A DNA stretch of 36,237 nt from Acidobacteriota bacterium. GTDB lineage: Bacteria > Acidobacteriota > Vicinamibacteria > Vicinamibacterales > UBA2999. Positions 3,262 through 32,900 of this stretch are shown piece after piece (positions within the stretch are counted from its first letter, which is position 1; each line of letters begins with the position of its first letter). The position numbers were made by a program, and so were the translations under genes. The stretch is taken from contig JAUSDY010000103.1 in assembly GCA_030650395.1 (NCBI GenBank), positions 1 to 36,237 on the forward strand. Reading direction: 5' to 3'. The notes under the pieces were generated by a model. That model was not told the origin of the DNA and ran no database searches. It saw nothing but the letters and a program-made list of their open reading frames with translations.

Positions 3262-5013
3262 GTGAGGCTCCAACTACTCGCCATCGTGCTCGCCGGCGTG
3301 TGCGCGACCACCGCGTTCGCCCAGGTTGCTCCGCCGGGTGCGGGGCGCGGACAGGGCGTCGGTCCCGGACAGGGTCAACGGCCGGCGCGCGCCCAAGCCG
3401 CACGGCCCGAGCCGCCGCGTGGCACGGCGATCATGCGGGGTCAGATCGTGGCGGCCGATAGCGGCTCGCCGATTCGCCGCGCGCAGGTTCGCGTGATTTC
3501 GGCACAGGCACGCGACAGCCGCATTGCCACCACCGACGCGCAAGGACGATTCGAGATCAAGGAGCTGGTCGGCGGCCGTTACACGATGACGGCGAGCAAG
3601 GGCGGCTTCGTCTCGCTGCAATACGGCCAGCGCCGCCCCTCTGAATCGGGCACGCCGATCGAGCTGGCCGACAGTCAAACCCTCGACAAGCTGGTGATTG
3701 CCCTCCCGCGCGGCAGCGTGCTCGGCGGGCGCATCACCGACGAGTTCGGCGAGCCCGTCGCCAGCGCGACGGTGGTCGCATTCAGGTACGGCTATTCCGC
3801 GGGCGCGCGGCGGATCATGCCGGTGGGCAACGCCAGCTCGCGCGATACCACCGACGACCAGGGCCAGTACCGGCTGTTCGGCCTGCCGCCCGGCGAGTAC
3901 TACGTCAGCGCCACGCTGCGGAGCACCGACGGTGAGGTCACCGATCCGATGGGCGGCGAACCCTCGGGATACGCCGGTACCTACTACCCCGGCACGTCGA
4001 ACATGGCCGAGGCATCGCGGATCACCCTTGCCGTCTCGCAGGAAAACACCACCGTGTCGTTTGGATTGATCGCGACGCGACTGGTGCGTATCTCTGGACA
4101 GGTGATGAGCTCCGACGGCGCGCCGGCCGCCGGCGGGATGGTGATGCTGCTGCCGGCGAGTAGCGCCGGCGGGCGGGCGATGACGCAGGGCGTCAGCGGC
4201 GCCCGCACCGATCAGACCGGCGTCTTCCGTCTGTCGAACGTGCCGCCTGGCCGCTATCAGGCACAAGCGCGCACCGGCATGCGCGGCGAGGGCGAGCTCG
4301 CGAAGATGGATCTGGTGGTCGGCAACGAAGACGTCGCCGGCATCTTGATGATCACGGCACCGGGCGGGCGCGCCACCGGCACCGTCGTGAGCGATACCGG
4401 CGAGCCGTTCGACTTCCGCGCACAGCAGCTCCAGATTGCGGCCCGCATCACCAACGTTGACGCGATGTCGTTCGGCGGCGGCCCCGCGGCCGGCGGCAAC
4501 GCCCGGGTCGGCACCGACTGGACGTTCGAGCTGGCCAACCTGACGGATGCGCGCTTGATCCGCACGAACGCGCCCCCGGGTTGGACGCTCAAGTCCGTAT
4601 CCCTCAACGGACAAGACATTACCGACGTGCCGATGGAGTTCCCGCCGGGGCAGGCAGTCGCGGGCCTGCAGGTGATGCTCACGAAGAGAGTGAGCGCGCT
4701 GTCGGGCCTCGTGAGCGACGCCAAAGGCAATCCCGTGCTCGATGCCACCGTGGTGGTGTTCCCGGCAGATGAGACGCTGTGGACGTATCAATCGCGCTTC
4801 ATCAAGGCGGCGCGTCCTGACCAGGACGGCAAGTATCAGATGCCGGCGCTCCCGGCCGGCAGCGACTACCTCGTGGTGGCGGTGCAGGGCCTCGAAGACG
4901 GCCAGGCCAGCGACCCGGATTTTCTCGCCACCATCAAAGAGCTGGGCGCGAAATTTTCACTCGGAGACGGCGAAACCAAGGCGGTGGACGTTAAACTGTC
5001 CGCGCGCCCATGA
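3262..5013 (+). CDS. Secreted multi-domain carboxypeptidase-regulatory-like protein, copy 2
   Basis: This 583-residue paralogue of the preceding gene has the same plan: a signal peptide (MRLQLLAIVLAGVCATTAFAQ), a Pro/Gly/Gln-rich linker, then repeated Ig-like regulatory modules. Diagnostic segments shared with copy 1 are AIMRGQIVAADSGSPIRRAQ, YGQRRPSESGTPIELAD, LPPGEYYVSATLR and LSGLVSDAKGNPVLDATV, plus a conserved tail ending in KAVDVKLSARP. GTG is chosen as the start because it gives a clean signal peptide and lies six bases after a TATGCT hexamer; there is no Shine-Dalgarno sequence. The gap to copy 1 is 45 bases. Function is unknown; a surface or matrix role is inferred from the family. 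The TGA is overlapped by the TGAGG that serves the next small gene. Confidence 0.85.
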   Translation: MRLQLLAIVLAGVCATTAFAQVAPPGAGRGQGVGPGQGQRPARAQAARPEPPRGTAIMRGQIVAADSGSPIRRAQVRVISAQARDSRIATTDAQGRFEIKELVGGRYTMTASKGGFVSLQYGQRRPSESGTPIELADSQTLDKLVIALPRGSVLGGRITDEFGEPVASATVVAFRYGYSAGARRIMPVGNASSRDTTDDQGQYRLFGLPPGEYYVSATLRSTDGEVTDPMGGEPSGYAGTYYPGTSNMAEASRITLAVSQENTTVSFGLIATRLVRISGQVMSSDGAPAAGGMVMLLPASSAGGRAMTQGVSGARTDQTGVFRLSNVPPGRYQAQARTGMRGEGELAKMDLVVGNEDVAGILMITAPGGRATGTVVSDTGEPFDFRAQQLQIAARITNVDAMSFGGGPAAGGNARVGTDWTFELANLTDARLIRTNAPPGWTLKSVSLNGQDITDVPMEFPPGQAVAGLQVMLTKRVSALSGLVSDAKGNPVLDATVVVFPADETLWTYQSRFIKAARPDQDGKYQMPALPAGSDYLVVAVQGLEDGQASDPDFLATIKELGAKFSLGDGETKAVDVKLSARP

Positions 5014-6284: not shown

Positions 6285-7816
<1,532 letters not shown>

Positions 7817-7889: not shown

Positions 7890-9143
7890 ATGACGTCGCG
7901 AAGAGTATTTCTGAAAAGCGGCGCGATGGCGATGGTCACGGTGGGGTTTGCGCCGTCGTTCCTGGCGCGCACGGCGGCGGCGGCGGGCACGCGCAAGAAG
8001 CTCTTCATCTCCGTGTTCCAGCGCGGGGCGGTGGACGGCCTCAACATGGTGGTGCCGTTCGGTGAGGCGGATTACTACCGCGCGCGGCCCAGCATCGCGA
8101 TTGCACGGCCGGGCGGCAGTGACGGTGCGATCGATCTCAACGGCTTCTTCGGCCTGCACCCGCGCATGGCGTCGTTCAAGCCGTTGTGGGATCGCGGCGA
8201 GCTGGCGATCGTCCATGCGTGCGGCTCGCACGACACCACAAGGTCGCACTTCGACGCGCAGGACTACATGGAGTCGGCGACGCCCGGCGTGAAGAGTACG
8301 AAAGACGGCTGGCTCAATCGGTACCTGCAAGTGCGACACGAGCGCGCAGGCGAGTCTGAAGACCCGCCTCTACATGATTCTCCTCTACAGGCCGTGGCGC
8401 TCACGAAGACTATGCCGCGAGCGCTGCAAGGCGTTGCGCCGGCGCTGGCTGTCGGCAATACCGACGACTTCAATGTCAGCGACATGGGAGCGAAGGCGTC
8501 GTTCGAGGAAATCTACGCGGCGGCCAAAGACAAGACGCTGCATGGCACCGCCGGAGAGACCTTCGACGCGATGCGAACGTTGAACCAGAAAACGAAGGGC
8601 ACGTATCGGCCCGCCAACGGCGCCGTGTATCCGCGCTCGCCGTTTGGACAGGCCCTGCAGGAGATCGCCCGGCTGGCCAAGGCGGACGTCGGCCTCGAGA
8701 TCGCCTTTGCGGAAAGCACGCAGTGGGACCATCACGTCAACGAGGGTGCGGCCACCGGCCAGATCGCCAATCGGCTCGACGATTTCTCACGCGGCGTCGC
8801 CGCGCTCGCGCAGGATCTCGGCGAGCGCATGGCCGACACCGTGATCCTGACGATGTCGGAGTTTGGGAGGGCGGTGGCGGAAAACGGCAGCCGCGGCACC
8901 GACCATGGCCACGGCAACGCGATGTTCGTGATCGGCGGCGGGGTCAAGGGCCGTGAAGTCTACGGCAAGTGGCCAGGGCTCGCCCTCGATCAACGCTATG
9001 AAGGACGCGACCTCGCGGTCACCACCGATTTTCGCGACGTCTTCAGTGAGGTGGTCGTCAAACATCTCGGGGCGGATCGGAGCGTCGCCGCCCGTGTGTT
9101 CCCCGGCTACACCACGCCCAGATTCCCCGGGGTCATTGCCTAA
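7890..9143 (+). CDS. DUF1501 family protein with Tat signal
   Basis: This 417-residue protein starts MTSRRVFLKSGAMAMVTVGF, with the SRRxFLK twin-arginine motif and hydrophobic stretch of a Tat export signal, so it is expected to fold in the cytoplasm before export. DUF1501 proteins belong to the alkaline-phosphatase/sulfatase superfamily. Segments typical of the family are FISVFQRGAVDGLNMVVPFG (about 32-51), IDLNGFFGLHPRMASFKPLW, ESTQWDHHVNEG, DTVILTMSEFGRAVAENGSRGTDHGHGN and MFVIGGGVKG. The acidic and histidine residues in the last segments sit where metal ligands occur in the superfamily, but activity is unproven. The start is fixed by GGAGG and the Tat motif. It pairs with the upstream DUF1800 gene, as is usual in Acidobacteriota and Planctomycetota. 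Confidence 0.9.
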   Translation: MTSRRVFLKSGAMAMVTVGFAPSFLARTAAAAGTRKKLFISVFQRGAVDGLNMVVPFGEADYYRARPSIAIARPGGSDGAIDLNGFFGLHPRMASFKPLWDRGELAIVHACGSHDTTRSHFDAQDYMESATPGVKSTKDGWLNRYLQVRHERAGESEDPPLHDSPLQAVALTKTMPRALQGVAPALAVGNTDDFNVSDMGAKASFEEIYAAAKDKTLHGTAGETFDAMRTLNQKTKGTYRPANGAVYPRSPFGQALQEIARLAKADVGLEIAFAESTQWDHHVNEGAATGQIANRLDDFSRGVAALAQDLGERMADTVILTMSEFGRAVAENGSRGTDHGHGNAMFVIGGGVKGREVYGKWPGLALDQRYEGRDLAVTTDFRDVFSEVVVKHLGADRSVAARVFPGYTTPRFPGVIA

Positions 9144-11227: not shown

Positions 11228-11253
11228 TGAGGGCTTGAGGGCTTGGGGGCTTG
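11228..11253 (+). repeat. 8-bp GAGGGCTT word array
   Basis: The word GAGGGCTT appears three times in succession (the last as GGGGGCTT) between the preceding stop codon and the TTG start of the aldolase-like gene. The TTG start codon itself lies at the end of the third copy. Confidence 0.7.
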
Positions 11254-12432
11254 ACGATCCATTCGCTTCGGACCCCCGCTGTCCTGATCGACAAGGCGCG
11301 CGCGATTCGCAATCTCGATCGGATGCAGGCGGCCGCCGACGCGCGCGGCGTCCGCCTGCGTCCGCACAGCAAGACGCACAAGAGCCCGGTCGTCGCCCGG
11401 TGGCAGATCGACCGCGGCGCCGTCGGCATCTGCTGCGCGAAGCTGGGCGAAGCGGAAGTCTTTGCCGACGCCAGCATCGCCGACATCCGGCTGCCCTATC
11501 CGATCAATCCCTCTAACGCCGATCGCGTGATCGCGCTTCTCGGGCGCACGCGGCTGTCGTTCATCGTCGATCATCCGGTCGTGGCGAAGCAGTGGTCCGA
11601 CGCGATGACGCGGGCCGGCAAGAAGGTGGACGTGCTGGTCAAGGTTGACGTCGGCTTCCACCGCTGCGGCATCGACCCGTTCGCGCGCGACTCGGTCGAG
11701 ATGGTCCGCGCGATAGCCGCCCTGCCTGGCCTCAACTTCCGCGGTTTGCTTTCGCACGCCGGGCACACGTATCACGCGCACTCAGAAGCCGAACTTCACG
11801 GCATGGCGGACAACGAGGCGGCGCGGCTTCGTGACCTCGTAGGCCGGTGCCGCGACGCCGGTGTGCCGGTCGAGGAAGTGAGCGCAGGCGCGACGCCGCC
11901 GGCGCGATTCTCGCTGCAGCAAGACGGCTTCACCGAGTTCCGGCCCGGCAATTACGTCTACTTCGATCGCACGCAGGTGGCGCTCGGCGCCGCCGCCCTC
12001 GACGACTGCGCCCTCACCGTGCTGGCGACGGTCGTCAGCAAGCCGGCGAAGGACCGTGTCATCTTCGATTCAGGAAGCAAGACCCTGACTAATGACGGGG
12101 CCCGCGGTTTCACACCGGCCCCGGGTTACGGGATAGTACTTCGGGGGTCGGGAGGGCAACTCACGTCGGGAGGGCAATCCTTGTCGGGAGGGCACTCCTT
12201 GTCGGGAAACGGGGTGCCCGTGCCCGACGACAATCTCTTGATCGAACGCTTATCCGAGGAACATGCGACTGTTCGCGCGCTCAATGGCACGACCGATCTG
12301 GAGCCCGGTGATCAAGTTCGAATCATTCCCAACCACTCGTGCGTGGTTTCGAATCTGGTAGATCAAGCCTGGCTATTGGAGGGAGACCGAATCGAACCTC
12401 TCGAGATTGCCGCACGGGGCCAAATTACCTAA
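11251..12432 (+). CDS. D-threonine aldolase / D-serine dehydratase-like PLP enzyme with in-frame repeat insertion
   Basis: This 393-residue protein has the alanine-racemase-type TIM barrel of the D-threonine aldolase family. RPHSKTHK at residues 38-45 carries the PLP-binding lysine (K41), followed by KVDVGFHRCGI (about 130-140) and EVSAGATPPARF (about 209-220), and the C-terminal PNHSCVVSN supplies the His-x-Cys zinc pair used by eukaryotic-type D-serine dehydratases. It is predicted to cleave or deaminate a D-3-hydroxy amino acid in the cytoplasm; the exact substrate is open. Residues about 300-321 are three in-frame 18-base repeats, read as SGGQLT, SGGQSL and SGGHSL, inserted between the barrel and the C-terminal lobe where relatives have a short loop. 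TTG is the likely start. A diverged second copy of the last 45 codons lies downstream at 12841. Confidence 0.82.
   Translation: MTIHSLRTPAVLIDKARAIRNLDRMQAAADARGVRLRPHSKTHKSPVVARWQIDRGAVGICCAKLGEAEVFADASIADIRLPYPINPSNADRVIALLGRTRLSFIVDHPVVAKQWSDAMTRAGKKVDVLVKVDVGFHRCGIDPFARDSVEMVRAIAALPGLNFRGLLSHAGHTYHAHSEAELHGMADNEAARLRDLVGRCRDAGVPVEEVSAGATPPARFSLQQDGFTEFRPGNYVYFDRTQVALGAAALDDCALTVLATVVSKPAKDRVIFDSGSKTLTNDGARGFTPAPGYGIVLRGSGGQLTSGGQSLSGGHSLSGNGVPVPDDNLLIERLSEEHATVRALNGTTDLEPGDQVRIIPNHSCVVSNLVDQAWLLEGDRIEPLEIAARGQIT
12147..12212 (+). repeat. 18-bp unit array lying in frame inside the aldolase gene
   Basis: Three units at 12147-12164, 12165-12182 and 12183-12200 share the 18-base pattern GTCGGGAGGGCANTCCTT, and a partial fourth begins at 12201. 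They belong to the same family as the intergenic arrays at 13851, 16704, 18399, 20561, 24412, 33504 and 33961. An 18-base period equals six codons, so the reading frame is kept. Confidence 0.88.
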
Positions 12433-12840: not shown

Positions 12841-13008
12841 TCGACGGACATCGAGCCCCGCGATCGCGTGCGGATCGTTCCCAACCATTCGTGCGTCGTG
12901 TCGAATCCCGTCGATCAGGCGTGGCTTCTGAACGGCGCGAGACCCGAACCACTTGAGATCACTGCAAGGGGTCTAATCTCATGGCCTGACAGAAAACCCT
13001 CCGGCTAA
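12841..13008 (+). pseudogene. C-terminal fragment of a second D-threonine-aldolase-like gene
   Basis: The frame from 12841 to the TGA at 13006-13008 encodes a segment matching the last 45 residues of the upstream aldolase-like protein, including PNHSCVVSN with the zinc-ligand His and Cys, VDQAWLL, and EPLEI-ARG near the end. The DNA differs from the upstream copy at many third codon positions, while the protein is largely kept. It is therefore an old paralogue or foreign homologue fragment, not a recent duplication. It has no start codon of its own and abuts repeat R2. Confidence 0.75.
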
Positions 13009-13088
13009 CAGGCTGAAATCGGGACCAATGCACTCAGCTGGCGGATGTTGTTTTTTGCTGTCTTCAGGCTGGGTGAGTGATCTACTGC

Positions 13089-13400
13089 TCAGAGCTTATG
13101 CGTTGGCTCAAACTGCTGATGGTTGCGTGACGTTGCCTTTGGTTGTGGGAACAGATTGGCAGCACTTCGGCGACCTACCCAGCATCTCCAAGTTTCTTGA
13201 GTAACTCGATTACGTGGAGCTGCGCTAATTGCCTTTCCGCCCCATTTCACAACAATATCTCCTGCTTGGTCGAGTGACTTGATGCGCTCTTTAAGCTTTG
13301 ACCTCTCACCAGCATCAACCTTGGTAATCTCTGTTCCGTCCGGACGCGAAGGATGACGAGTCCCAACCGTCACGTCACAGGTCACGTCACAATCCGACAA
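13089..13400 (-). CDS. Hypothetical protein, uncertain
   Basis: A 103-residue open frame on the reverse strand has lower GC content than its surroundings and a plausible charged central part (KVDAGERSKLKERIKSLDQA). I do not recognise a family. The N-terminus reads through a direct repeat of TGTGACGTGAC, and no ribosome binding site or -10 element is clear. It may be a remnant of a mobile segment that ended near the tRNA-Asn fragment. The GC drop is the main reason to think this stretch was acquired. Confidence 0.3.
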   Translation of the reverse strand: MSDCDVTCDVTVGTRHPSRPDGTEITKVDAGERSKLKERIKSLDQAGDIVVKWGGKAISAAPRNRVTQETWRCWVGRRSAANLFPQPKATSRNHQQFEPTHKL

Positions 13401-13438
13401 CCTAGTCTAGACACGACCTAGTCGAACTTGTAGGGATT

Positions 13439-13518
13439 TGGCTCCTCCGGCTGGACTCGAACCCGCCTCTGCTGAAGGCTAAGGCGGGCCGGGCCAGCAA
13501 CCAACCGCTTAACGCCGG
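13439..13518 (-). pseudogene. tRNA-Asn 3' part, T-arm interrupted by a 32-bp palindrome
   Basis: Read on the reverse strand, the sequence ends with the 3' acceptor strand CGGAGGA, discriminator G and encoded CCA (ending at 13439), preceded by the T-loop TTCGAGT and T-stem CCAGC. This matches bacterial tRNA-Asn, whose 5' acceptor is TCCTCNG. The other T-stem strand GCTGG is present, but 32 bases (13462-13493) separate it from the loop. Further upstream GTTAA, with flanking bases similar to a tRNA-Asn anticodon arm (GTT anticodon), is still visible to about 13518. No D-arm or 5' acceptor strand follows, so it cannot be a functional tRNA. tRNA 3' ends are common phage and island attachment sites. 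Confidence 0.6.
13462..13493. repeat. 32-bp palindromic insertion within the tRNA-Asn remnant
   Basis: The insertion has complementary arms CCCGCCT and AGGCGGG-like ends around a loop containing GCTGAAGGCTA. It belongs in style to the CCCGCC...GGCGGG palindromes found inside the 18-bp arrays at about 13879-13913, 18421-18450 and 24455-24485. Removing it restores a perfect five-base T-stem. Confidence 0.55.
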
Positions 13519-13628
13519 ATGCGCTGTGTCTGGGCCTGATTCGTGAAACGGGGACGCAGCGATCCGGGACCGCGAGGCTCCCCGAGCCCAGCTACCGCTT
13601 GTCACGCGACCCTGGCGTGGTCGCGGGC

Positions 13629-13813
13629 GCGCGGCGAGGTGCCTCGCGGCGTGAGCGTTCGAGCGAGGCGAGGACAAGCAACCCGTCGTCAAATCGACCG
13701 GAGGCCACATGCGGCGAGTTGCGGTTTTGGCGCCCATAGCCCAAGCGCTTGATGTGCCGAGGGAGATTTGACCGCCGAGACGAGAGCGAACGCCGGGAGG
13801 CGCCTCTCCGCGC
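13629..13813 (+). repeat. Structured repeat R3 with 24-bp inverted ends
   Basis: The ends 13629-13652 and 13790-13813 pair at 21 of 24 positions. The interior has GTGAGCGTTCGAGCGAGGCG, AAATCGACCGGAGGCCACAT and GAGAGCGAACGCC, shared with R2 in the same orientation and with R1 in reverse. Short open frames crossing it are not considered genes. Confidence 0.75.
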
Positions 13814-13850
13814 GACCGCCACCGGCGCTTCGCGAGAGCCATTGATAACA

Positions 13851-13977: not shown

Positions 13978-14280
13978 ATGGCACCGAAGACCGACGGCGG
14001 CGAAGCGATCGGCATGGTCGAAACCCGCGGGTTCGTGGGTCTAATCGAGGCCGCCGATGCGATGGTGAAGACCGCCAACGTAGTGTTTGTCGGCTGGCAA
14101 AAGGTCGACGCCGGCCTGGTCACCGCCATCGTCCGTGGCGATGTCGGCTCGGTGAAGGCCGCCACAGATGCCGGCGCCGCGGCCGCCCGCCGCGTCGGCG
14201 AGCTCGTCGGCGTGCACGTTATTCCCCGCCCCGCGGACGATCTCGAGAAGATCTTCCCGATGCTGAAGGCGAAGATCTAG
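13978..14280 (+). CDS. BMC-H bacterial microcompartment shell protein, orphan
   Basis: This 100-residue protein matches single-domain hexameric shell proteins of the PduA/EutM/CcmK type over its whole length: [20 protein letters not shown] (residues 12-31), [40 protein letters not shown] and [15 protein letters not shown]. Such proteins form the hexagonal tiles of bacterial microcompartments. The pore loop normally reads KIGSG or KIGAG; here it is KVDAG, putting an acidic residue where the central pore lies. No other shell gene, aldehyde dehydrogenase or signature enzyme is in the window, so it is a satellite or orphan shell gene. It appears to be transcribed as a leaderless mRNA from TAGAAT and is followed by a perfect-stem hairpin. 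Confidence 0.92.
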
Positions 14281-14335: not shown

Positions 14336-16282
14336 ATGAAACGGGTAGGCGCCTTTACCGTCCTTTCCTTCGCCATCTCCTTTCTGGTCCTGGGTGTTGC
14401 GCCCGCACAGGTGCAGCAGCCAGGGAGCGCCGCCGACCGGTTCGAGGTCAGCGACGTGATGATCCCGACGCGCGATGGCACCCGGCTGCACACCAAGGTA
14501 TTCGTGCCCCGCCTTCGCCAAGGCTCCGGCGCGGCAGGCTCAGGCAGCGAGCTGCTGCCGATTATCTTCAAGCGCACGCCGTACGGCATCGAAGGGTCGG
14601 CCGGGAATTTCAACGCCTACTTCAAGGCACTCGAAGCCGACGGCTACATCTTCGTGTTCCAGGATATTCGCGGCAAGTTCGGTTCCGAGGGCCAGTTCAT
14701 GATGCAGCGCCCAGCCCGGACGCCTCCGCCCAAGGGCTTCGGCGGTCCAAGCGGCGCTGTCAACACAGGGGCCATCGACGAAGGGACCGACACCTACGAT
14801 TCGATCGACTGGCTGCTGAAAAACATCCGCAACAACAACGGCCGCGTCGGCATGCTCGGCGTGTCGTACGACGGCTGGACCACGATCATGGGCGCGATCG
14901 AGCCGCATCCGGCGCTCAAGGCGATCTCGCCGCAGGCCTCCCCCGCCGACATGTGGATGGGCGACGACTTCCACCATAACGGCGCGTTCCGCCTCAGCTA
15001 CGGCTTCGAGTACGCCGCGATGATGGAGAGCGGCAAGGACGTCCAGCAGTTCAAGTTCGATCGCTACGACACGTTCGACTGGTACTTGAATCTCGGTTCG
15101 CTGGCCAACGTGAACTCCAAGTATCTGCACGGCAAGATCCCGACCTGGAACGATTACGTCGCACACCCGGACTACGACGAGTTCTGGAAGCGCCAGACGA
15201 TGATCCCCCACTTGACGAGCGTCAAGGTGCCAACGCTGAACGTGGCGGGATGGTGGGACCAGGAGGATTTCTACGGGCCCGTGCGCATCTACGACGCCTT
15301 GGAACGCTTCGACACCAAGGGCATGAACTACCTGGTGGTCGGTCCGTGGCGCCACGGTGGCTGGTCGGGCGGCGCCGGCAACGCGCTCGGCGCGATCCCG
15401 TTCGGCAGCAACACCGCCGAGTACTTTCGCGAGCAAGTGCAGGCGCCGTTCTTCGCGTACTTCCTGAAGGACAAGGGCACGGGCAACTTCGCGCAGGCGC
15501 TTACGTTCGAGGCGGGCACGAACGAATGGCGCCGGTGGAATCAATGGCCGCCGACCGCACGGACCGAAACCCGGGGCCTGTATCTTGGACCCGGTGAGAC
15601 TCTCGTGATCGACAAACCTAAAGGCTTGTCGCCACAGGGTGGGGCCGAACCTTCAGGTTCGGCCTTCGACGAGTTCGTATCGGATCCGGCGCATCCGGTG
15701 CCGTATCGTCACCGTCCCATCCAGCCGACCTACTTCCCCGGCGGCTCGAAGTGGTCGACGTGGCTGGTGGAAGATCAGCGCTTCGTTGACGACCGCGCCG
15801 ACGTGCTCAGCTGGGAAACCCCGCCACTGGATGCCGACGTCACCATCGCGGGCGAGGTCATGGCCCACCTGTTTGCGTCAACGACCGGCAGCGATGCCGA
15901 TTGGATCGTGAAACTGATCGACGTCTATCCCGAAGATCACCCGTCGAACTGGGAGCTCGCCGGGTTCCAGCTGATGGTGTCGAACGAGGTGTTCCGCGGT
16001 CGCTACCGCACCAGCTTCGAGAAGCCCGCCGCGATCGAGCCGAACGCCGTGCTCGAGTACACGTGGAGCCTGCACACGCAGAACTACACCTTCAAGAAGG
16101 GCCACCGCATCATGGTGCAGGTGCAGAGCACGTGGTTCCCGATCATCGACCGCAACCCGCAGACGTTCGTGCCGAATATTTTTCAGGCGAAGGAAAGCGA
16201 CTTCAAGGCCGCGACGCACCGGATTTACCGGACGCCGCAGTACCCTTCGCGCGTCGACGTGCCGGTCGTTCGCGCGCGATGA
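14336..16282 (+). CDS. Secreted CocE/NonD (X-Pro dipeptidyl-peptidase S15) hydrolase
   Basis: This 648-residue alpha/beta hydrolase has a signal peptide (MKRVGAFTVLSFAISFLVLG). The S15/CocE pattern includes VMIPTRDGTRLHTKVFVPR, IIFKRTPYG, VFQDIRGKFGSEG, the nucleophile elbow GVSYDG with Ser177, YLVVGPWRHGGW and FLKDKGTG; the C-terminal jelly-roll domain starts near EFVSDPAHPVPYRHRP. Members hydrolyse acyl esters or proline-linked peptides or antibiotics outside the cytoplasm; the substrate is unknown here. Two insertions relative to relatives come from dispersed repeats: about residues 58-71 (Gly/Ser-rich, before LLPIIF) and about 426-444 (GLSPQGGAEPSGS). TACGCT seven bases before the ATG suggests a leaderless start. 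The last 80 bases overlap the convergent MerR gene. Confidence 0.88.
   Translation: MKRVGAFTVLSFAISFLVLGVAPAQVQQPGSAADRFEVSDVMIPTRDGTRLHTKVFVPRLRQGSGAAGSGSELLPIIFKRTPYGIEGSAGNFNAYFKALEADGYIFVFQDIRGKFGSEGQFMMQRPARTPPPKGFGGPSGAVNTGAIDEGTDTYDSIDWLLKNIRNNNGRVGMLGVSYDGWTTIMGAIEPHPALKAISPQASPADMWMGDDFHHNGAFRLSYGFEYAAMMESGKDVQQFKFDRYDTFDWYLNLGSLANVNSKYLHGKIPTWNDYVAHPDYDEFWKRQTMIPHLTSVKVPTLNVAGWWDQEDFYGPVRIYDALERFDTKGMNYLVVGPWRHGGWSGGAGNALGAIPFGSNTAEYFREQVQAPFFAYFLKDKGTGNFAQALTFEAGTNEWRRWNQWPPTARTETRGLYLGPGETLVIDKPKGLSPQGGAEPSGSAFDEFVSDPAHPVPYRHRPIQPTYFPGGSKWSTWLVEDQRFVDDRADVLSWETPPLDADVTIAGEVMAHLFASTTGSDADWIVKLIDVYPEDHPSNWELAGFQLMVSNEVFRGRYRTSFEKPAAIEPNAVLEYTWSLHTQNYTFKKGHRIMVQVQSTWFPIIDRNPQTFVPNIFQAKESDFKAATHRIYRTPQYPSRVDVPVVRAR
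15611..15664 (+). repeat. Two adjacent palindromes in frame inside the S15 hydrolase gene
   Basis: GACAAACCT and AGGCTTGTC (15611-15630) form one palindrome. GGCCGAACCT and AGGTTCGGCC (15643-15664) form a second of the same design. They lie between the catalytic and jelly-roll domains and are translated in frame. The first is the element also seen at 14283, 24661 and 35947. Confidence 0.85.
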
Positions 16283-24645: not shown

Positions 24646-26775
24646 ATGAACTGGGGAATGGACAAACCTCCCGCCTTCGCGCCGAGCGCTTCCGCCTTCG
24701 CTCGGGCTACGGCGGACAAGTCGGTGGGCAAGAAAGGTTTGTCCCCACGCACCGGTTTGTCCCCACGCACCGGCTTCTCCCCACGGCGTGTGTCGGCGGT
24801 CACGGTGCTCGCCGGCCTCGTGCTGTTGCTCGTGCCGGCGCTCGCCTACATGCAATACCAGTGGCTCGGCCAGTTGAGCGAGGCCGAACGCGAGCGGATG
24901 CAGCGAACACTGCGCACCGCCGCTGCGCAATTCGCGGTGGAGTTCGACACCGAGTTGTCGCGGGCGCTCGTCAGCCTGCAGGTCGACGGCCAGACGATCC
25001 GCGATGAGAACTGGGCCAGCTACGCGCAGAAGTACTCGGCGTGGACGGCCGGCGCCAGCGAGCCGCGGCTGGTCCGCGACGTGCTGCTCGTCGACACACT
25101 GCCAGGAACCGAGTTGCCGACGTTTGAAGCGGCGGGATCGGTTCCCGTCGAGCGCCTCCGGATCCGCCGATGGAACAACCAGGCGATTGCGTTCGACGCT
25201 GCGGAGTGGACGCCCGACCTCGCGAAGGTCCGCGAATCGCTGGCCTCGCATTTCATCGGATTTCAAGTCCGCACCAGCGCCCCCTCCGGTCCGGCGGGCG
25301 GGGACCGGGGCCGCCGCGAAGGCACGATCGCGCTCTCGCTCGGCGACGACGACACGTTGATCGCGCCGGTCACGCTGGTCGAGCTGCCCGAAGGGCGCCG
25401 GGGCTCGCCGAAGATCACCATTCTTGGTTTTACTCTCGTGAGGCTCGATCCAGTGGTGATGCGCGACACGCTGCTCGCGTCGCTCACCGCGCGGCACTTT
25501 CATGGTGACGACGAGCAGGTCGATTACCGCGTGGCCGTGGTCGATCGCAACGATCCGGCGAGGGTGGTGTGGGAATCGGAGCCGGGCATCGCGACGTCGA
25601 TTGTGTCCAGCCCCGACGTCACGCAGCACTTCATGGCGCCGCGGCCGGATCAAATGTTCATCTTCGCGCGGGGTTCCGGACCACGAGAGCGCGGTCCCGT
25701 AACAGGAGTGCCTCCGCTACCACCGCCACCCCCTGTCCCGGGCGAGCGCGCACGAGCTGAGGTTCCTCGACAGAACAATGTTGTGGTCTCGGTCATCGAG
25801 CGCGAAGACCGAAACGGCGGCCGCATGATCACCCGGAGCGGTCCGATGACGCCTTTCGATGGCCGATGGGCGCTCGTCGCCCAGCATCGAGCGGGGTCGC
25901 TCGAGGCCGCGGTTGCGGCGGTGCGCAAGCGCAACCTGATTCTGAGCTCGGGCATCCTGCTGCTGCTCACGATGGCGGTCGGCCTGATCATCGTGTCGTC
26001 GCGTCGCGCGCAAGAGCTCGCGCGGCAGCAAATGGAGTTTGTCGCGGCGGTGTCGCACGAGCTGCGCACGCCCGTGTCGGTGATTGGCGCCGCCGCCGGC
26101 AACCTCGCCGACGGCGTGGTCGGCGATCCACAGCGCGTCCGCAAGTACGGCGAAACCATTCAAACCGAAGCGCGCCGGCTGGCCGAAACCGTCGAGCGTG
26201 TGCTGCAACTGGCGGGCATCGCGGCCGGGCGCGCCGCTGCCGCGCCGGTGCGGGTCGATCCCGCGGATCTCGTCAACGATTCGATCGCCAACTGCCGCGT
26301 CGAGATCGAGGCGGCCGGCGTCAAGGTCGAAAGCCTCGTCGGCGACGATTTGCCCTTCGTGCAAGGCGATGCCACCGCGCTTCGTTCGGCGTTACAGAAT
26401 CTGATCAGCAATGCCGTCAAGTACGGTGGTGACGCGCACTGGGTTCGCGTCACGGCGCGCGGATCGGGGACCGGGGATCAGGGATCAGCGCACAACAACG
26501 TCATCTTCACCGTGGAAGATCGCGGGCTCGGCATCGACGCCGACGATCGCCGCCACATCTTCGAGCCGTTCTACCGCGGGCGCGAAGCGGTCAGCCGGCA
26601 GATCAAGGGCAGCGGCCTGGGGTTGAACCTGGTGCAGCGCATCGCGGAAGCGCACGGCGGCCGCGTTACCGTTACGAGCGAACCCGGCGAGGGCAGCACC
26701 TTCACGATCACGCTGCCGGGCGTGCCCGATCCGCCGGTGGTCGAAACCGGCGCGGCGCTCAGCCTTGCCAGATAA
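24646..26775 (+). CDS. Sensor histidine kinase with repeat-derived N-terminal extension
   Basis: From ATG 24646 this is a 709-residue membrane kinase. Residues 5-47 are translated dispersed repeat (GLSPRTGLSPRTGFSPRR at the end). TM1 is at about 49-70 (SAVTVLAGLVLLLVPALAY), then comes a periplasmic sensor region with a proline-rich stretch (PPLPPPPPVPGE), and TM2 is at about 428-450. The H-box FVAAVSHELRTPVSVI has the phosphoacceptor His471. The ATPase domain has ISNAVKYGG (N box), VEDRGLGIDADDRRHIFEPFYRG (G1 and F boxes) and GSGLGLNLVQRIAEAHGG (G2). A second short repeat-like insertion lies at about residues 606-614 (GSGTGDQGS). The last codons overlap the start of the response regulator by 11 bases, so they form one operon. 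The signal sensed is unknown. Confidence 0.9.
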   Translation: MNWGMDKPPAFAPSASAFARATADKSVGKKGLSPRTGLSPRTGFSPRRVSAVTVLAGLVLLLVPALAYMQYQWLGQLSEAERERMQRTLRTAAAQFAVEFDTELSRALVSLQVDGQTIRDENWASYAQKYSAWTAGASEPRLVRDVLLVDTLPGTELPTFEAAGSVPVERLRIRRWNNQAIAFDAAEWTPDLAKVRESLASHFIGFQVRTSAPSGPAGGDRGRREGTIALSLGDDDTLIAPVTLVELPEGRRGSPKITILGFTLVRLDPVVMRDTLLASLTARHFHGDDEQVDYRVAVVDRNDPARVVWESEPGIATSIVSSPDVTQHFMAPRPDQMFIFARGSGPRERGPVTGVPPLPPPPPVPGERARAEVPRQNNVVVSVIEREDRNGGRMITRSGPMTPFDGRWALVAQHRAGSLEAAVAAVRKRNLILSSGILLLLTMAVGLIIVSSRRAQELARQQMEFVAAVSHELRTPVSVIGAAAGNLADGVVGDPQRVRKYGETIQTEARRLAETVERVLQLAGIAAGRAAAAPVRVDPADLVNDSIANCRVEIEAAGVKVESLVGDDLPFVQGDATALRSALQNLISNAVKYGGDAHWVRVTARGSGTGDQGSAHNNVIFTVEDRGLGIDADDRRHIFEPFYRGREAVSRQIKGSGLGLNLVQRIAEAHGGRVTVTSEPGEGSTFTITLPGVPDPPVVETGAALSLAR
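24661..24788 (+). repeat. GGACAAACCT-type element with 18-bp tail, in frame inside the kinase gene
   Basis: Inverted ends GACAAACCT (24661-24669) and AGGTTTGTC (24735-24743) enclose a GCGCCGAGCGC-containing core. They are followed by two copies of the 18-base unit GGTTTGTCCCCACGCACC and a partial third. The structure is nearly the same as at 35947-36055 in the addA-like gene. It lies in the cytoplasmic N-terminus just before the first membrane segment. Confidence 0.85.
26461..26488 (+). repeat. GGATCGGGGACC word repeat inside the kinase ATPase domain
   Basis: The words GGATCGGGGACC, GGGGATCA and GGGATCAG follow each other and are translated in frame as GSGTGDQGS. This is between the N box and the G1 box, where the kinase family has a variable loop. 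Confidence 0.55.
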
Positions 26776-27566: not shown

Positions 27567-29387
27567 TTGGCGAAAGCGAAGGCTCCGAAGGCTCGGAAGG
27601 TTTTGAAGGTTTCGAAGACCGCCACGCCATACCTCCATCCGGATCAGCAGGCAGCCATGCGTCCCGACGTCGGGACGCAGGCAAACTTCCGTAAGAAGAA
27701 GGCCCCGACTACAAAGAAGCCAAAGCATCGGGCGGATGGGCCTTTAATCAGATCGAGCTTCCCGATAAAACGCGGCGGCCGCTGACAACAGAAGAGAGAC
27801 AGGGTGACGTGCCGCTCCCGGACAACGCGCGACTCTACACGCTCGACAATCTAACTTCCCAGGGTTCAACACCTTCCGGGACGGTTAATTTCGAATTCAA
27901 TGGCAGATCGTTTCATCCGGGAGCCAGGTCGCACTGGAAGACGACCTCAATGGGCATGCATAAGCTTGCTGCTGCGCGCCGAATTGAAGACTCAGCGAAT
28001 CAGATTCGGTACGTTCGTTTTTCTAACGATTTTCCTGTCCAGCCGATTTCCAACATTTGGACGGATTCAACTCAGGCCGGATTTGTTGACGCCAAGATCT
28101 ACGCCGTGCAGACTCTGACAAAAGTGGTTCAGAGGTGCATTCTCATGACTACAGACCCGGGCGACCTAGTAATCGACCCAACTTGTGGAAGCGGAACGAC
28201 CGCGCTTGTCGCAGAACGATGGGGTCGCCGGTGGATCATGATTGACACCTCTCGGGTTCCTCTCGCGCTCGCTCGACAACGCCTCCTGACAGCGACCTAC
28301 GATTATTTCGAATTGACGGATTCGGCTCGGGGTCCAGCCGGCGGATTCGTATACAAGAGAAGACAAAACAAGAAGGGCGAGGAGGCCGGGGGGATCGTTC
28401 CTCATGTAACCCTAGGAAGTATCGCAAACGACGAACCACCCGAAGAAGAGGTACTTGTCGACAGGCCTGAGATTGACGGCAAGATCGTTCGAATCACTGG
28501 GCCATTCGCTTTCGAGGCGACCATCCCGACTCCGGTGGACTGGGAAGGCGATGGCGAAGAGGATTCGGGAAGCGAGCAAGCGCAGGAGTACGGGTCGTTT
28601 GTCGAACGCATGATTGAGGTCCTGCGGCGTTCGCCTGTCCTGCACGTCGGCGGCGGCAAGACGGTCACGGTCGGTAATGTTCGACCGCCGGCGAGATCGC
28701 TTTCGCTGTCGGCGGAGGCGCTCAGCCTCAACGGCAGCGACAAGCCCGTCGCGTTCGTGTTTGGTCCAGAGAACGGCGCCATCAGCGAGAAGCTCGTTCA
28801 CGGCGCGCTGAGCGAGGCGCACCTTAAAGGCTACACGCATCTCTACGTTATTGGCTTTGCGATTCAGCCGCATGCGCGGACGCTGATCGACAGCGCGGCG
28901 GCGATGGGGCTCGTGCCCGCAACCTACGTGCAGGCAACGCCGGACCTGATGATGGGCGACCTGCTGAAGAACATGAGATCCAGCCAGATCTTCAGCGTCT
29001 GCGGCCTGCCGGACATCAAGGTCCATACGCTGCCACCCGAGAAAAAGGGCGGCCCCTCACGGTTTCAGGTTGAGCTGCTCGGTCTCGACACGTTCGACCC
29101 CCATCTCGATGGAACCGGATCATCGTTCTGGAAACGACGTGCCGGCGTGGTTCCTCGATGTCGACTACAACCAGCTGTCGTTCCACGTCTCGCAGGCGTT
29201 CTTTCCCCGCACCGGCGCCTGGAACGATTTGCGAAAAGCGCTGAAGGGTGATTACGACGACAGCGTTTGGGAACACCTGTCCGGCACGAAGAGCGCGCCG
29301 TTCGAAGCGGGCGGCCACGCGCAAATTGCCGTCAAGGTGATTGACGACCGCGGCAACGAATTACTGGTCGTGCAGAAGCTGCCGTGA
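27567..29387 (+). pseudogene. Site-specific DNA (adenine/cytosine-N4) methyltransferase, internal deletion and frameshift
   Basis: Three frames together give a family I recognise from its parts. 27567 to about 27705 encodes the usual N-terminus (VSKTATPYLHPDQQAAMRPD, VGTQANFRKKK). From about 27700 a different frame gives WAFNQIELPDKTRRP, LPDNARLYTLDNLTSQG, then LVIDPTCGSGTTALVAERWG (SAM-binding motif I of a beta-class enzyme). From about 29105 a third frame gives DVPAWFLDVDYNQLSFHVSQ, IAVKVIDDRGNELLVV and the stop. The segment that should lie between the first two parts, including the catalytic DPPY/DPPF-type motif IV, is absent: several hundred residues are missing. With the late frameshift, this methyltransferase cannot be active. 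It begins with a 9-base word repeat. It is the partner of the downstream helicase-nuclease. Confidence 0.78.
27577..27620 (+). repeat. 9-bp word repeat at the methyltransferase N-terminus
   Basis: CGAAGGCTC occurs twice, followed by GGAAGGTTT, TGAAGGTTT and CGAAGACCG at exact 9-base spacing. The period is three codons, read as KAP, KAR, KVL and KVS. It is another of the short word-like tandem repeats of this window. Confidence 0.7.
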
Positions 29388-29389
29388 AA

Positions 29390-29662
29390 TCAGGAATCGG
29401 TTTCTTTGATCGGACCGAGCGCGGGCAAATGCTTCTTCGCACACTTCATGCGGATGTTGAGGGCCTCGACCATCCGTCGGACTTGCCACGCGGCCACCTG
29501 GTAGTCACGGCCGCCGGTTCCCGGACCCTTGGGAAATTCGATCCAGGAACGGCCGTCGTAGTTGATCCAGCGATGATGCAGCTTGAGTTTTTCCGACCAG
29601 CCCGGCGCACACGCATCCAGCATCTTTCGGATGTGCGACCACCAGATGCCGGCGGCCGCCAT
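29390..29662 (-). CDS. Small protein of unknown function, second gene of a reverse-strand pair
   Basis: This 90-residue protein reads GIWWSHIRKMLDACAPGWSE, then HHRWINYDGRSWIEFPKGPG and YQVAAWQVRRMVEALNI. The composition (Trp, His, Cys, balanced charge) looks like a real folded protein and the shape resembles small toxin- or defence-associated hypotheticals, but I cannot name a family. It starts nine bases after the stop of the preceding 162-residue gene on the same strand, so the two form a likely operon. The pair is inserted antiparallel between the two halves of a restriction-modification locus. Its stop lies two bases from the end of the methyltransferase. Confidence 0.6.
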   Translation of the reverse strand: MAAAGIWWSHIRKMLDACAPGWSEKLKLHHRWINYDGRSWIEFPKGPGTGGRDYQVAAWQVRRMVEALNIRMKCAKKHLPALGPIKETDS

Positions 29663-29671
29663 GACGAATGC

Positions 29672-30160
29672 CTAGGCGGCGACGAGGTGTTCGGGTTCGC
29701 TGAGAATATTCTGGGCCGGCGCCAGCTCAGTGTGGACAATCGCAACGCTCGCCGGCATGTCGGCGGGCTGTCTCGGCACGTTGACATCAGCCCCGACCGC
29801 CTGGCGCGACGCCGCTACAGCGCGATTCCATTCGTCGATGACCGACGGCGAGGTTTGATGCACGAAGCGCTCGACGGCAGTCTTGAACGCGTCGAACGTC
29901 TCCTCTTCCGCGGCGATGTCGAACAGGATGGTCGTGAACATCTTGCGGAACGCGTACTGTGCGAGTTCCCGTGTCGCGCCGCTCGCGGCCATGCCGCCGG
30001 GCTCGACTCCGGCCATGACGAACTCATCGTCCTCACGTACACACAGCGCCCGTCCCGTCGTTTCAATCGTCGCGGCGAAGCCGCGGCCGAAGATGACGTC
30101 GCGGTACCGAAAGAACAACGGCAGCGAATCGAGTTCGAGCGAAAACGGGGACAGGGCCAT
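29672..30160 (-). CDS. Protein of unknown function, first gene of a reverse-strand pair
   Basis: This 162-residue protein begins MALSPFSLELDSLPLFFRYR, DVIFGRGFAATIETTGRALC and contains the helix-rich EEETFDAFKTAVERFVHQTS. It is intact, with a GAGG ribosome binding site seven bases before the ATG. I do not recognise its family; the N-terminal part has a beta-strand pattern and the middle is helical. Together with the following 90-residue gene it looks like a two-component cassette (toxin-antitoxin or defence accessory are guesses). The cassette is intact, whereas the genes on both sides have internal deletions. Confidence 0.62.
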   Translation of the reverse strand: MALSPFSLELDSLPLFFRYRDVIFGRGFAATIETTGRALCVREDDEFVMAGVEPGGMAASGATRELAQYAFRKMFTTILFDIAAEEETFDAFKTAVERFVHQTSPSVIDEWNRAVAASRQAVGADVNVPRQPADMPASVAIVHTELAPAQNILSEPEHLVAA

Positions 30161-30315
30161 AAGAAGCCTCGGTTACTGTATCGGCAGATCCGCGAACGCT
30201 TGCACTGCGAAACCGGCGACCGAGTACGCCATCTACGACGCGGATGGGTGGCACTGCACCCATGCGTGCCAGCCATCCAGAAGATCATTATACCGTCGTC
30301 CTCAGCCCCCTTCCA

Positions 30316-32900
30316 ATGAACGCCCAGTTCGAGGTCCCCGAGCCCATTATCTGCTCTCCTTACGAGGAGCCGGCTTTTCATTGGCATCTCGAAGAGGGCC
30401 GCGATCCCGAAAAGCGGCCCAAACGGCGCCCGGCCAGCTACTTCTACCGGGAGCCATCGAGAGGCGAGGAGGGTGAGGCCGCGGGCGTGGCCGTGGCGCT
30501 TCCGTTGGTGAACCTCGTCCGCGAACGGCTCGCGCAATGGCGAACCGATGGCTACCCCGGCTCGACGCGGACGACGCTCGAGCTGCTCAACTATTGGCGC
30601 CGCGACGGCCGGCAGCACCGGCTGTTCTTCGCGCAGCTGGAGGCGGTTGAAACCATCGTGTTTCTCACCGAAGCGCGGCGCGACTACCTCCAGGGCATCG
30701 ACATTCCGGCCGACGAGCCAAGCGACCGCCAGAAAGCCGATCTTGGCTACAAAGCATTCCGCCGTTACGCCTGCAAGATGGCCACGGGTTCCGGCAAGAC
30801 GACGGTGATGGGATTGCTGTCGGCGTGGAGCATCCTGAACAAGGTCCACGACCGCGGCAACGCGCGATATTCCGATGTCGTGCTTGTGGTGTGCCCGAAC
30901 GTGACGATTCGTAGCCGGTTGGCGGAAATCGATCCACGTCTCGGTGATGCCAGTCTCTATCGGACCCGCGACCTCGTTCACCAGGACCTGATGAAGGACC
31001 TCGGGCAGGGCCGCGTGCTCGTCACCAACTGGCACGTGTTCGAACCGCAAGGCATTCAAGCAGGCGGCGTTTCTTCGAAGGTGGTGAAGGCGGGCGTTCG
31101 GCAGCGCACGCGCGAATTCATCACGATTGGAGCCAAGACCACTACGGCGCGCGGCAGGCGCTATCTGACCCACGACGAGTTCGAGCGGCAGGTCAACGGC
31201 GGAATGCTGACCGTGCTCGAACGTGAGGAAGACAAGGACGGGAACCTCAGTCGTGTTTATGTCGCGGCCGAACGTTACGTTGAAAGCGACACGGCGTTAG
31301 TGAAGCGGGTCCTGGAACGCGAAGGCGTCGGAGGAAAGCAGAACATCCTGGTGTTCAACGACGAGGCCCACCATGCTTACCGGATCCGAAAAGAGGAGCC
31401 TGATCCCGACGAAGTGGACTTGTACGGCGATGCGGACGACGCGGAGGATTTCTATAAGGAGGCGACCGTCTGGGTGGAAGGCCTCGACCGCATTCATAAA
31501 TTGAAGGGCATCAACACCTGCATCGATCTGTCCGCGACGCCGTATTTTCTGGGCCGCGTGGGTCAGGATAGTAACCGGCCGTTCCCATGGGTCGTGAGCG
31601 ATTTTTCACTGACAGACGCAATCGAGTCCGGCTTGGTGAAGATTCCACAACTGGCGGTCCGCGATACGAGCGGCGCGGAGGTCCCCGGCTACTTCAATGT
31701 CTGGCGATGGATTCTGCCCAAGCTCACGCCGGCCGAGCGTGGCGGCAAGAAAGGATCGCCAAAGCCCGAGGCGATTCTCAAGTATGCGAATACCCCCGTC
31801 GCGATGCTCGCCGGTCTCTGGGACGAGGTCCGGCGCGAGTGGGAGAACACGCACAGTGGCGATCCGCGGCCACCGGTGTTTATCGTGGTGTGTAAGAACA
31901 CGGCCATCGCCAAGGCCGTGTACGAGTGGCTCGGCAACAACGCACCGCCGACCGGTATTCCCAAGCACTACATCACGGAGTTCGTGAACACGGCCGAGCG
32001 GCTGAACACGATCCGGGTCGACTCAAAAGTCGTACACGAGACCGACACGGGACATGCCAAGTCGGATGAGTCACAGTGGATGCGCTTCACGTTGGATACG
32101 GTTGGTAAGACGGCATGGCCGGTTGATCGTCAAGGACGACCGATCTATCCCGAGGGATTTGAGGAGCTGGCCGCAAACCGGCACGCCGGCCTCCATCCGC
32201 CGGGCCGGGACGTTCGGTGCATCGTGTCGGTGGGCATGCTGACCGAAGGCTGGGACTGCAACACGGTCACGCACATCGTCGGGCTTCGCCCGTTCATGTC
32301 GCAACTGTTGTGCGAACAAGTGGTGGGCCGCGGCCTCAGGCGTTCAAACTACGAAGTTCGCGACAACGGATTGATGACCGAAGAGGTCGCCAAGGTGTTT
32401 GGCGTGCCGTTTCAAGTCGTGCCGTTCAAGGCCAACGCCACGGCCGCTCCAGCGGAACAGTCGACGCGGCATCATGTCTATGCGCTTCCGGGACGGGCAC
32501 GCTTCGAGATTCAGTTCCCCCGCGTCGAGGGATATCGCCAGGCGATCCGAAACCGCGTGACGGTGAATTGGGATACCGTCGCTCCGCTGTTTCTCGACCC
32601 GCTCAAGATCCCGCCCGAAGTTGAGATGAAGGCATCGCTCCCCACTAACTCCGGTCGTCCTTCGCTGACGGGACCAGGTCAGCTCGCGCGGGTTGACTTG
32701 AACCGGACTTCATCGTACGGTTAGGCACAAACACTCACCTAATCCTTGAAACGAAAGGGTTCGATGAACTTGCGGACGTCAAAGCGCACGCGGCCGAACG
32801 GTGGGTCGCGGCCCTAAACGCGGACGGATCTTTGGGTACCTGGAGCTTTGCAATGGCGCGAAAGGTCTCCGAGGTCCGCGACATCCTGGATCGCCAATAG
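30316..32900 (+). pseudogene. Type III-like restriction helicase-nuclease (BPTD_3080-like), internal deletion and frameshift
   Basis: The frame from ATG 30316 to TAG at 32722-32724 gives 802 residues: FEVPEPIICSPYEEPAFHWH, Walker A ATGSGKTT (near residue 158), motif II FNDEAHHAY (near 349), LSATPYF, and motif VI CEQVVGRGLRR (near 670), a complete superfamily 2 helicase. Relatives continue for roughly 150-200 more residues. Here the frame breaks at about 32700. A second frame from 32703 to TAG 32898-32900 encodes PDFIVRLGTNTHLILETKG, the PD-(D/E)xK nuclease core (PD...ETK), and the family C-terminus. The region joining them is missing and out of frame, so cleavage activity is lost although the helicase part may still be made. 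A longer upstream frame start was not used. Confidence 0.78.

Follow-up and report, generated by a model that had tools for sequence, protein, structure and literature searches.

REP-like palindromes at the T-stem/T-loop junction of tRNA fragments in an Acidobacteriota genome and its relatives

To our knowledge, the choice of insertion sites by REP hairpins and their way of moving are still open. The closest described system to the repeat examined here is that of REP/REPIN elements with their TnpA-REP (RAYT) transposases. In both, a short imperfect palindrome occurs in tens to about 100 copies per genome, has a conserved foot on one side, and can form a hairpin in single-stranded DNA. The present repeat differs in that its foot is CYTG-like rather than GTAG/GTGG or CGTC, that a copy lies inside a tRNA fragment, and that no linked transposase gene appeared in a crude motif scan. 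GTAG or CGTC tags are carried by the main REP super-families (PMC3733652). The available part of that source also describes REP families within palindromes, namely GTAG-15 of A. variabilis, GTAG-23 of T. roseum and CGTC-1 of H. neapolitanus. Like these, the hairpins considered here are REP-type hairpins seated in other palindromes; unlike them, in that account, they do not keep to palindromes of one consensus, since the hosts vary from copy to copy and include three T-arms (PMC3733652).

TnpA-REP-like Y1 transposases have been reported from Acidobacteria (PMC3733652, PMC6006769, as far as the accessible text of each extends), and class 3 TnpA-Y1 enzymes with CnGA-foot structures from Acidobacteria, Planctomycetes and Proteobacteria (PMC6006769). 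The class 3 structures resemble the present ones as high-copy atypical DNA hairpins of the same phylum, a comparison made by the hairpins alone; they differ in the foot, CnGA there and CYTG here. A further parallel is provided by the ssrA islands of Dehalococcoides, where one island boundary after another is marked by a repeated 3' end of a single RNA gene. The enzyme in Dehalococcoides is a serine recombinase, whereas a tyrosine integrase is found here (in relative G004), and the accessible portion of that account describes no REP insertion in the repeats (PMC3146451). Rickettsia palindromic elements (RPEs) are likewise palindromic repeats inside genes, and an initial annotation of the present locus had cited them as palindromes in tRNA genes. 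In the available text this is not borne out, since the RPEs described there are 100-150 bp long and lie in protein genes, and their tRNA-related hosts are enzymes, not tRNA genes (PMC3767692). No description of a REP insertion in a tRNA T-arm was found in the literature searched, which mostly lay outside subscription journals.

The DNA analysed here (the window, 36,237 nucleotides) is an entire contig of a 5.4-Mb, 180-contig assembly (genome G000). The features of the locus are as follows.

11251-12432, plus strand: Ala-racemase/D-Ser-dehydratase-like gene, conserved on the left side of the insertion block (Pfam, locus comparison)
12995-13015, minus strand: tentative second attachment core, containing CTGTTAGCCGGAGGGTT, profile positions 27-47 (7.7 bits, E 0.22; weak)
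13016-13438, minus strand: low-GC segment between the two cores, with ORF 13089-13400 (GC 0.511 vs 0.641 for the window)
13439-13461, minus strand: tRNA-Asn q53-75, with T-loop TTCGAGT, T-stem CCAGC, acceptor strand, discriminator G and encoded CCA (sequence, alignment, profile)
13462-13493, minus strand: inserted REP-like palindrome, 32 bp, stem CCCGCC/GGCGGG, at the T-stem/T-loop junction (tRNA-Asn profile, pairwise alignment, folding; missed by the REP profile)
13494-13526, minus strand: eroded tRNA-Asn q19-52, with the end of the D-stem, anticodon arm (GTT), variable loop and T-stem GCTGG (nhmmer profile positions 19-55, alignment)
13624-13819, plus strand: dispersed repeat, about 200 bp, present in this species and a congener and having copies in inverted orientation (near the composite in both)
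13978-14280, plus strand: BMC-domain gene, right conserved neighbour (Pfam, locus comparison)

Here q denotes a plain count along the 75-nt tRNA-Asn gene; the joint q52|q53 is the conventional 53|54. The minus strand of 13439-13526 carries the 3' part of a tRNA-Asn gene (profile positions 19-75), split by the 32-bp interrupter. By hand count on this strand, the anticodon lies at 13513-13511, T-stem strand GCTGG at 13498-13494, the T-loop at 13461-13455 and T-stem strand CCAGC at 13454-13450; then come the acceptor strand CGGAGGA, the discriminator G and CCA, whose last base is 13439. A sequence profile HMM (not a covariance model), built from 30 full tRNA-Asn loci with 4 distinct sequences, matches the uncut window in two pieces, 19-55 (15.0 bits) and 48-75 (16.7 bits). 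Excision of the 32 nt gives one continuous tRNA-Asn alignment over 19-75 with 42.8 bits (E 2.5e-12) and restores a 5-bp T-stem; the maximum among 1000 mononucleotide shuffles of the excised 350-nt neighbourhood is 10.1 bits.

These results confirm what the initial annotation had seen, a tRNA-Asn 3' end with 32 palindromic bases between GCTGG and the T-loop, the removal of which gives back a perfect T-stem. The tRNA-Asn similarity that it had expected of the excised sequence is also found, with the profile HMM standing in for a covariance model, as is the intact tRNA-Asn that it had proposed to locate elsewhere in the genome (G000:C14:21481-21555). In calling the 5' half missing it went too far: the 5' end is lost, but the unrecognisable part is confined to about 18 nt at the start of the gene, and the anticodon arm is present, eroded by substitutions and one lost base in the alignment.

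ARAGORN found no tRNA gene in the intact window. After excision it made no call at -ps95 and a single tRNA-Gly call at -ps80, taken as spurious; the lack of a tRNA-Asn call at either setting is expected of a truncated remnant. Rfam gave nothing at the gathering threshold in the window, and nothing at E<=10 in the 351 bases around the locus. With the insert removed, the window copy does not form the complete cloverleaf of a functional interrupted tRNA gene; it has what an attachment-site remnant should have, a tRNA 3' part running through CCA and lying apart from the intact gene. Two other descriptions were dropped. A single full degenerate tRNA of all 82 nt with another acceptor pairing (TCCGGC/GCCGGA) was discarded by eye, the tRNA-Asn profile and the relatives explaining the sequence, and a tRNA-derived repeat element was set aside as the fragments differ in extent. 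The feature is a genuine tRNA-Asn fragment with an insert exactly at the T-stem/T-loop junction.

The inserted palindrome itself appears to be kin to a dispersed family of REP-like hairpins, as a divergent copy that pairwise alignment recognises and a profile search misses. Searched with the pattern CCGCCGNAGCNTNNGCGNAGGCGG at up to 2 mismatches, this genome yields 103 matches, against 5 for a control in which the same pattern is read backwards. Among relatives, the matches (reversed control in brackets) number 59 (1) in G001, 109 (4) in G004, 43 (2) in G009, 27 (3) in G021 and 46 (2) in G090. The family is thus REP-like in the broad sense, an imperfect palindrome of 20-40 bp in many copies, and the window insert forms a hairpin on folding. 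The consensus unit, drawn from 66 distinct copies in this genome and relatives, is mostly C[T/C][T/G]G[T/C] followed by CCGCCG[T/A]AGC[C/T]T[T/C][G/A]GCG[A/G]AGGCGG; the next base is most commonly A, then G. In these 66 copies the foot is mostly C, T/C, T/G, G, and is not the GTAG or CGTC tag of the main REP super-families.

In pairwise alignment, the window insert scores 39.5 and 27.5 with two typed REP consensus forms, and 34.0 with the insert of the congener G001; in each case, 0 of 5000 dinucleotide shuffles reach the score. For the G009 insert, one consensus form gives 32.0 (0 of 5000 shuffles) and the other 17.0, a value that 120 of 5000 shuffles reach. A profile of 59 REP copies has no match at E<=1 to the window insert or the G009 insert; the same profile detects the inserts of G001 and G090 and all three of G092, and reaches a half copy on G000:C14 only at E 0.061. 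The stem of the G009 insert is TCCCC/GGGGA, compared with CCCGCC/GGCGGG elsewhere, both arms having changed together. The foot CYTG begins five of the seven full composite inserts, and is absent from the window and tRNA-Asp inserts. Composites (a tRNA copy with its insert) fold into hairpins, yet the fold is not in itself unusual, because the z-scores are only -0.5 to -1.7. Two more REP-like copies are found in the window at 24691-24719 and 14509-14532 (profile E 3e-6 and 1.4e-5), within mechanical ORFs.

The joint is occupied in the same way in other genomes and other tRNAs. A REP-like insert lies at the T-stem/T-loop junction of tRNA-Asn in five genomes, namely in the window, G001:C171, G009:C50, G090:C270 and G092:C307. 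At the same joint, a tRNA-Pro fragment (G092:C58) carries a 30-bp REP-like insert, and a tRNA-Asp copy (G092:C186) a 77-bp insert with a second palindrome inside. With their inserts removed, the G092 tRNA-Pro and tRNA-Asp copies align across the joint with the tRNA-Pro and tRNA-Asp of G000, and ARAGORN calls tRNA-Asn(GTT) in the G009 copy. On G000:C14, a bare q53-75 fragment has a half REP copy immediately before it and is 933 bp away from the corresponding point of the intact tRNA-Asn. As judged from these alignments, the recurrence of one insertion joint in relatives and in three tRNA identities is the new part of the finding; like the kinship of the palindrome to a dispersed REP-like repeat, it goes beyond the initial annotation.

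An insert-blind pattern has nine matches in 162 genomes, three of which are composites, the other six being judged from the matched stretch alone; a second such pattern, run on 396 genomes across the phylum, has three matches, two of them composites and the remaining one likewise judged from its matched stretch. The exact pattern of a REP right end followed by a T-loop has six matches in 161 genomes, all at tRNA 3' ends, and none for its reversed control. The G001 composite was found by scanning individual loci and stands outside these genome-wide counts. In 50 loci around other REP copies, a T-loop follows the REP-like right end in 0 of 87 cases (not made distinct). Insert orientation is the same in all seven composites, this being the only orientation that the exact pattern sees; an orientation-blind search of 162 genomes also gives the same orientation in three of three. 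In viral contigs, a broad pattern has at least 120 matching stretches, and those within the 80 listed loci resemble, when read by eye, ordinary viral tRNAs or tRNA neighbourhoods; a narrower pattern has five matching stretches, which are pattern matches only.

REP-like copies also occur directly before CCYGAGGAGCCA, in L318 (G090:C270) at 3464-3490 and in L315 (G004:C22) at about 554. These cases look as if the hairpin had replaced the T-loop and most of the 3' strand of the T-stem.

The congener G001, of the same genus, has the same neighbour genes with a composite between them, and the two loci are orthologous. The G001 composite is followed on its 3' side by restriction-modification-like genes, for a D12-class adenine methylase and a PD-(D/E)XK nuclease, together with an unmatched ORF. 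In L063 (MAG ND5_Bin_50), about 165 bp separate the matches to the neighbour genes, compared with 1545 bp in the window, figures that are not base-precise; the short interval fits a relative that lacks the inserted block, but L063 may instead have lost it. Relatives L065 and L066 have a different arrangement. In the window, the 423-bp segment on the 3' side of the composite (GC 0.511, compared with 0.641 overall) is taken as a decayed island interior; its ORF 13089-13400 has no family match in Pfam or PHROGs. Besides its inverted copies in the window, the repeat at 13624-13819 has others, 81-87% identical, in this genome and in the congener.

The window holds 144 mechanical ORFs, and none of the 21 scanned with Pfam or the 10 scanned with PHROGs (one ORF is in both sets) is an integrase; the locus is therefore classed as a decayed remnant rather than an intact island. 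The proposal of the initial annotation that an island boundary lies here at an integrase target holds in part. The tRNA-Asn attachment fragment and the loci of relatives agree with it, while the window itself speaks for it weakly, with no integrase in the scanned ORFs and a second core of 7.7 bits.

An intact tRNA-Asn was used to search 44 genomes (43 of the family, and G090); 39 of these have matches, some of which are other tRNAs at 76-82% identity, and 33 have full-length matches at >=92% identity. Another 15 places, in 13 genomes, hold 3' fragments of tRNA-Asn; their starts range over q21-38, their ends are q71 or q75, and one of them, G061:C139, is at a contig end. Eleven compared fragments, including the weak second core of the window, start exactly at q31, and some end at q56-57 instead of q75. 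G004 has an intact tRNA-Asn and, at a distance of 18.7 kb, a q21-75 fragment; the opposite-strand ORF that reaches the intact gene encodes a tyrosine integrase (Phage_integrase, E 1.2e-26) and adjoins a type I restriction subunit gene. Fragments of q21-75 are also present in G008 and G017, and the composite of G009:C50 is separated from a second core by a PIN-domain gene. By these comparisons, tRNA-Asn is an integration hotspot in these relatives. Its start being close to that of the q21-75 fragments in G004, G008 and G017, the window fragment is read as a decayed island fragment of attR type. An integron-cassette arrangement, in which repeated tRNA ends would enclose toxin-antitoxin or restriction genes, was not retained, the G004 island at tRNA-Asn having a tyrosine integrase of its own.

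A second palindrome family precedes tRNA-Asn 3' ends (q55-75 or q60-75) in L308 (G021:C36, 277-297), L315 (G004:C22, 696-676) and L317 (G061:C139, 12967-12952), and lies inside the T-loop of a core in L397 (G028:C6, about 6542). It may represent an att arm or another REP-like family. In L390 (G005:C7), tRNA-Asn cores at 7358-7386 and 8118-8136 end at q52 and q49, about 760 bp apart, and have the non-tRNA flank CCGGTCCCACTGTGGTTT in common.

The composite is probably best explained as a decayed tRNA-Asn attachment fragment (about q19-75) from an integrative element, into which a REP-like hairpin was later inserted at the tip of the T-arm. This account builds on the tRNA homology and its exact split, the pairwise kinship of the insert, the composite at the orthologous congener locus and the one joint in three tRNA identities. 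In outline, the element would leave its attachment fragment, close in extent to the q21-75 fragments of G004, G008 and G017. The T-arm, with its 5-bp stem and 7-nt loop, would fold in single-stranded or extruded (cruciform) DNA, and the REP-like unit would be joined at the 5' stem-loop junction of the folded arm. The insertion would be tolerated, and its product persist, since such host copies would not be working tRNA genes. The mover may be a Y1/HUH transposase of the TnpA-REP kind; a TnpA-REP-like Y1 transposase is the likely enzyme class for the movement of REP-like hairpins. A crude motif scan of individual loci for a TnpA-REP gene near REP copies gave 10 matches, none a transposase by eye.

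Several observations count against this explanation. The REP profile misses the window and G009 inserts, and the latter is unremarkable against one consensus form; the window and tRNA-Asp inserts are without the CYTG foot, and the foot of the family is neither GTAG nor CGTC. Only a minority of REP copies is nested in palindromes (see below), the crude motif scan showed no TnpA-REP gene near REP copies, and the scanned window ORFs include no integrase. As regards host copies that do not work, the G001 composite is the sole tRNA-Asn match of an assembly that is 91% complete.

Among other explanations, it is possible, if unlikely, that a single ancestral att fragment with its REP gave rise to the tRNA-Asn composites, either by descent or by travelling with an element; the site would then have been hit only once or twice. 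The orthology of the window and G001 loci is in keeping with this, as are the G009 and G090 inserts, which have in common a GCAGC loop start and a CTTG foot. A single ancestor is harder to reconcile with an insert in three tRNA identities and with the different left ends of the tRNA-Asn copies; that of G009 is nearly the whole gene, those of the window and G001 start at about q19-25, and those of G090 and G092 at about q30-31.

A slightly less probable alternative is that the palindrome is an arm of the att site of an integrative element, GG|TTCGA being the strand-exchange point of the integrase, and that imprecise excision kept the arm. The G000:C14 arrangement is attR-like in this respect, a half REP and bare q53-75 lying 933 bp from the corresponding point of the intact gene with small ORFs between; the second palindrome family before q55-75 or q60-75 fragments in G021, G004 and G061, and the two G005 fragments that end at q52 and q49 with a common non-tRNA flank, also lend themselves to it. 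Yet the family to which the insert is kin has some 100 pattern matches in the genome, the insert starts at the family foot CYTG in five of seven full composites (the window and tRNA-Asp being the exceptions), the same junction is used in tRNA-Asp and tRNA-Pro, and imprecise deletions would not be expected to produce an identical left end every time.

That a working tRNA-Asn gene carries an intron-like insert which is spliced out is very improbable. The G009 copy, nearly a whole gene in which ARAGORN calls tRNA-Asn once the insert is removed, and G001, where no tRNA-Asn match other than the composite was found, would suit this idea, but the window copy is without its first 18 nt or so, G000, G009 and G090 have full tRNA-Asn matches, and the G009 copy shows changes in its 5' acceptor strand. 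A chance resemblance in GC-rich intergenic DNA, for which nothing speaks beyond GC richness, is hardly credible in view of the E value after excision (2.5e-12, shuffles reaching at most 10.1 bits) and the composite at the orthologous G001 locus.

If the T-arm was targeted because it is a hairpin, as the attachment-fragment explanation with later insertion supposes, other REP-like copies are expected inside other palindromes. Nesting was counted when the flanks pair over >=8 bp within 10 nt of the unit, leaving out T-loop-followed cases and near-duplicates. By this measure, 7 of 58 REP-like copies outside tRNAs lie in outer palindromes, examples being the outer pairs GGGCGAGGCA/TGCCTCGCCC and AGGCGGGTCTT/AAGACCCGCCT; shuffles of the right flank give a mean of 0.6, and none of 1000 reaches 7. 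An earlier version of the count had given 6 of 67; its 200 shuffles averaged 0.74 and reached 4 at most. Nesting of REP-like copies is above chance but a minority habit.

More generally, and with rather less than even confidence, it can be proposed that in this order of Acidobacteria REP-like hairpins spread partly by inserting at the stem-loop junction or tip of existing DNA hairpins, tRNA T-arms being one natural class of target. Hits in working tRNA genes would be lethal, so that insertions would survive in the tRNA copies left by integrative elements, a natural trap in which they are recorded. Recurrence at one T-arm joint suggests that REP-like repeats can land in existing DNA hairpins. 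Since REP-like copies occupy a single joint in tRNA fragments whose ancestral sequence is known, they amount to before-and-after pairs: the target can be seen empty, the inserted unit has readable ends, and what is targeted looks like a structure and not a sequence motif. If this is correct, an attachment core split by the insert could no longer serve an integrase, which could explain why some attachment sites are dead.

Some further observations concern the surroundings. Positions 12853-12977 of the window are a 74% copy of the 3' end (12301-12425) of the D-Ser-dehydratase-like neighbour gene, and beside the locus lies a gene for a PepX protein whose closest named matches come from MAGs labelled Acidobacteria, except the fourth, which is labelled Cyanobacteria. 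The BMC (bacterial microcompartment shell) gene at 13978-14280 is the only shell gene that Pfam showed in the 21 ORFs scanned with it. At 27809-32724, the window contains DNA methylase (N6_N4_Mtase) and ResIII helicase genes, a restriction-modification-like pair. Elsewhere in the same assembly, a 15-kb contig has a dense array of about 30 tRNA genes (G000:C75:2858-6051, L040), many of them low-scoring, at roughly one per 80-100 bp.
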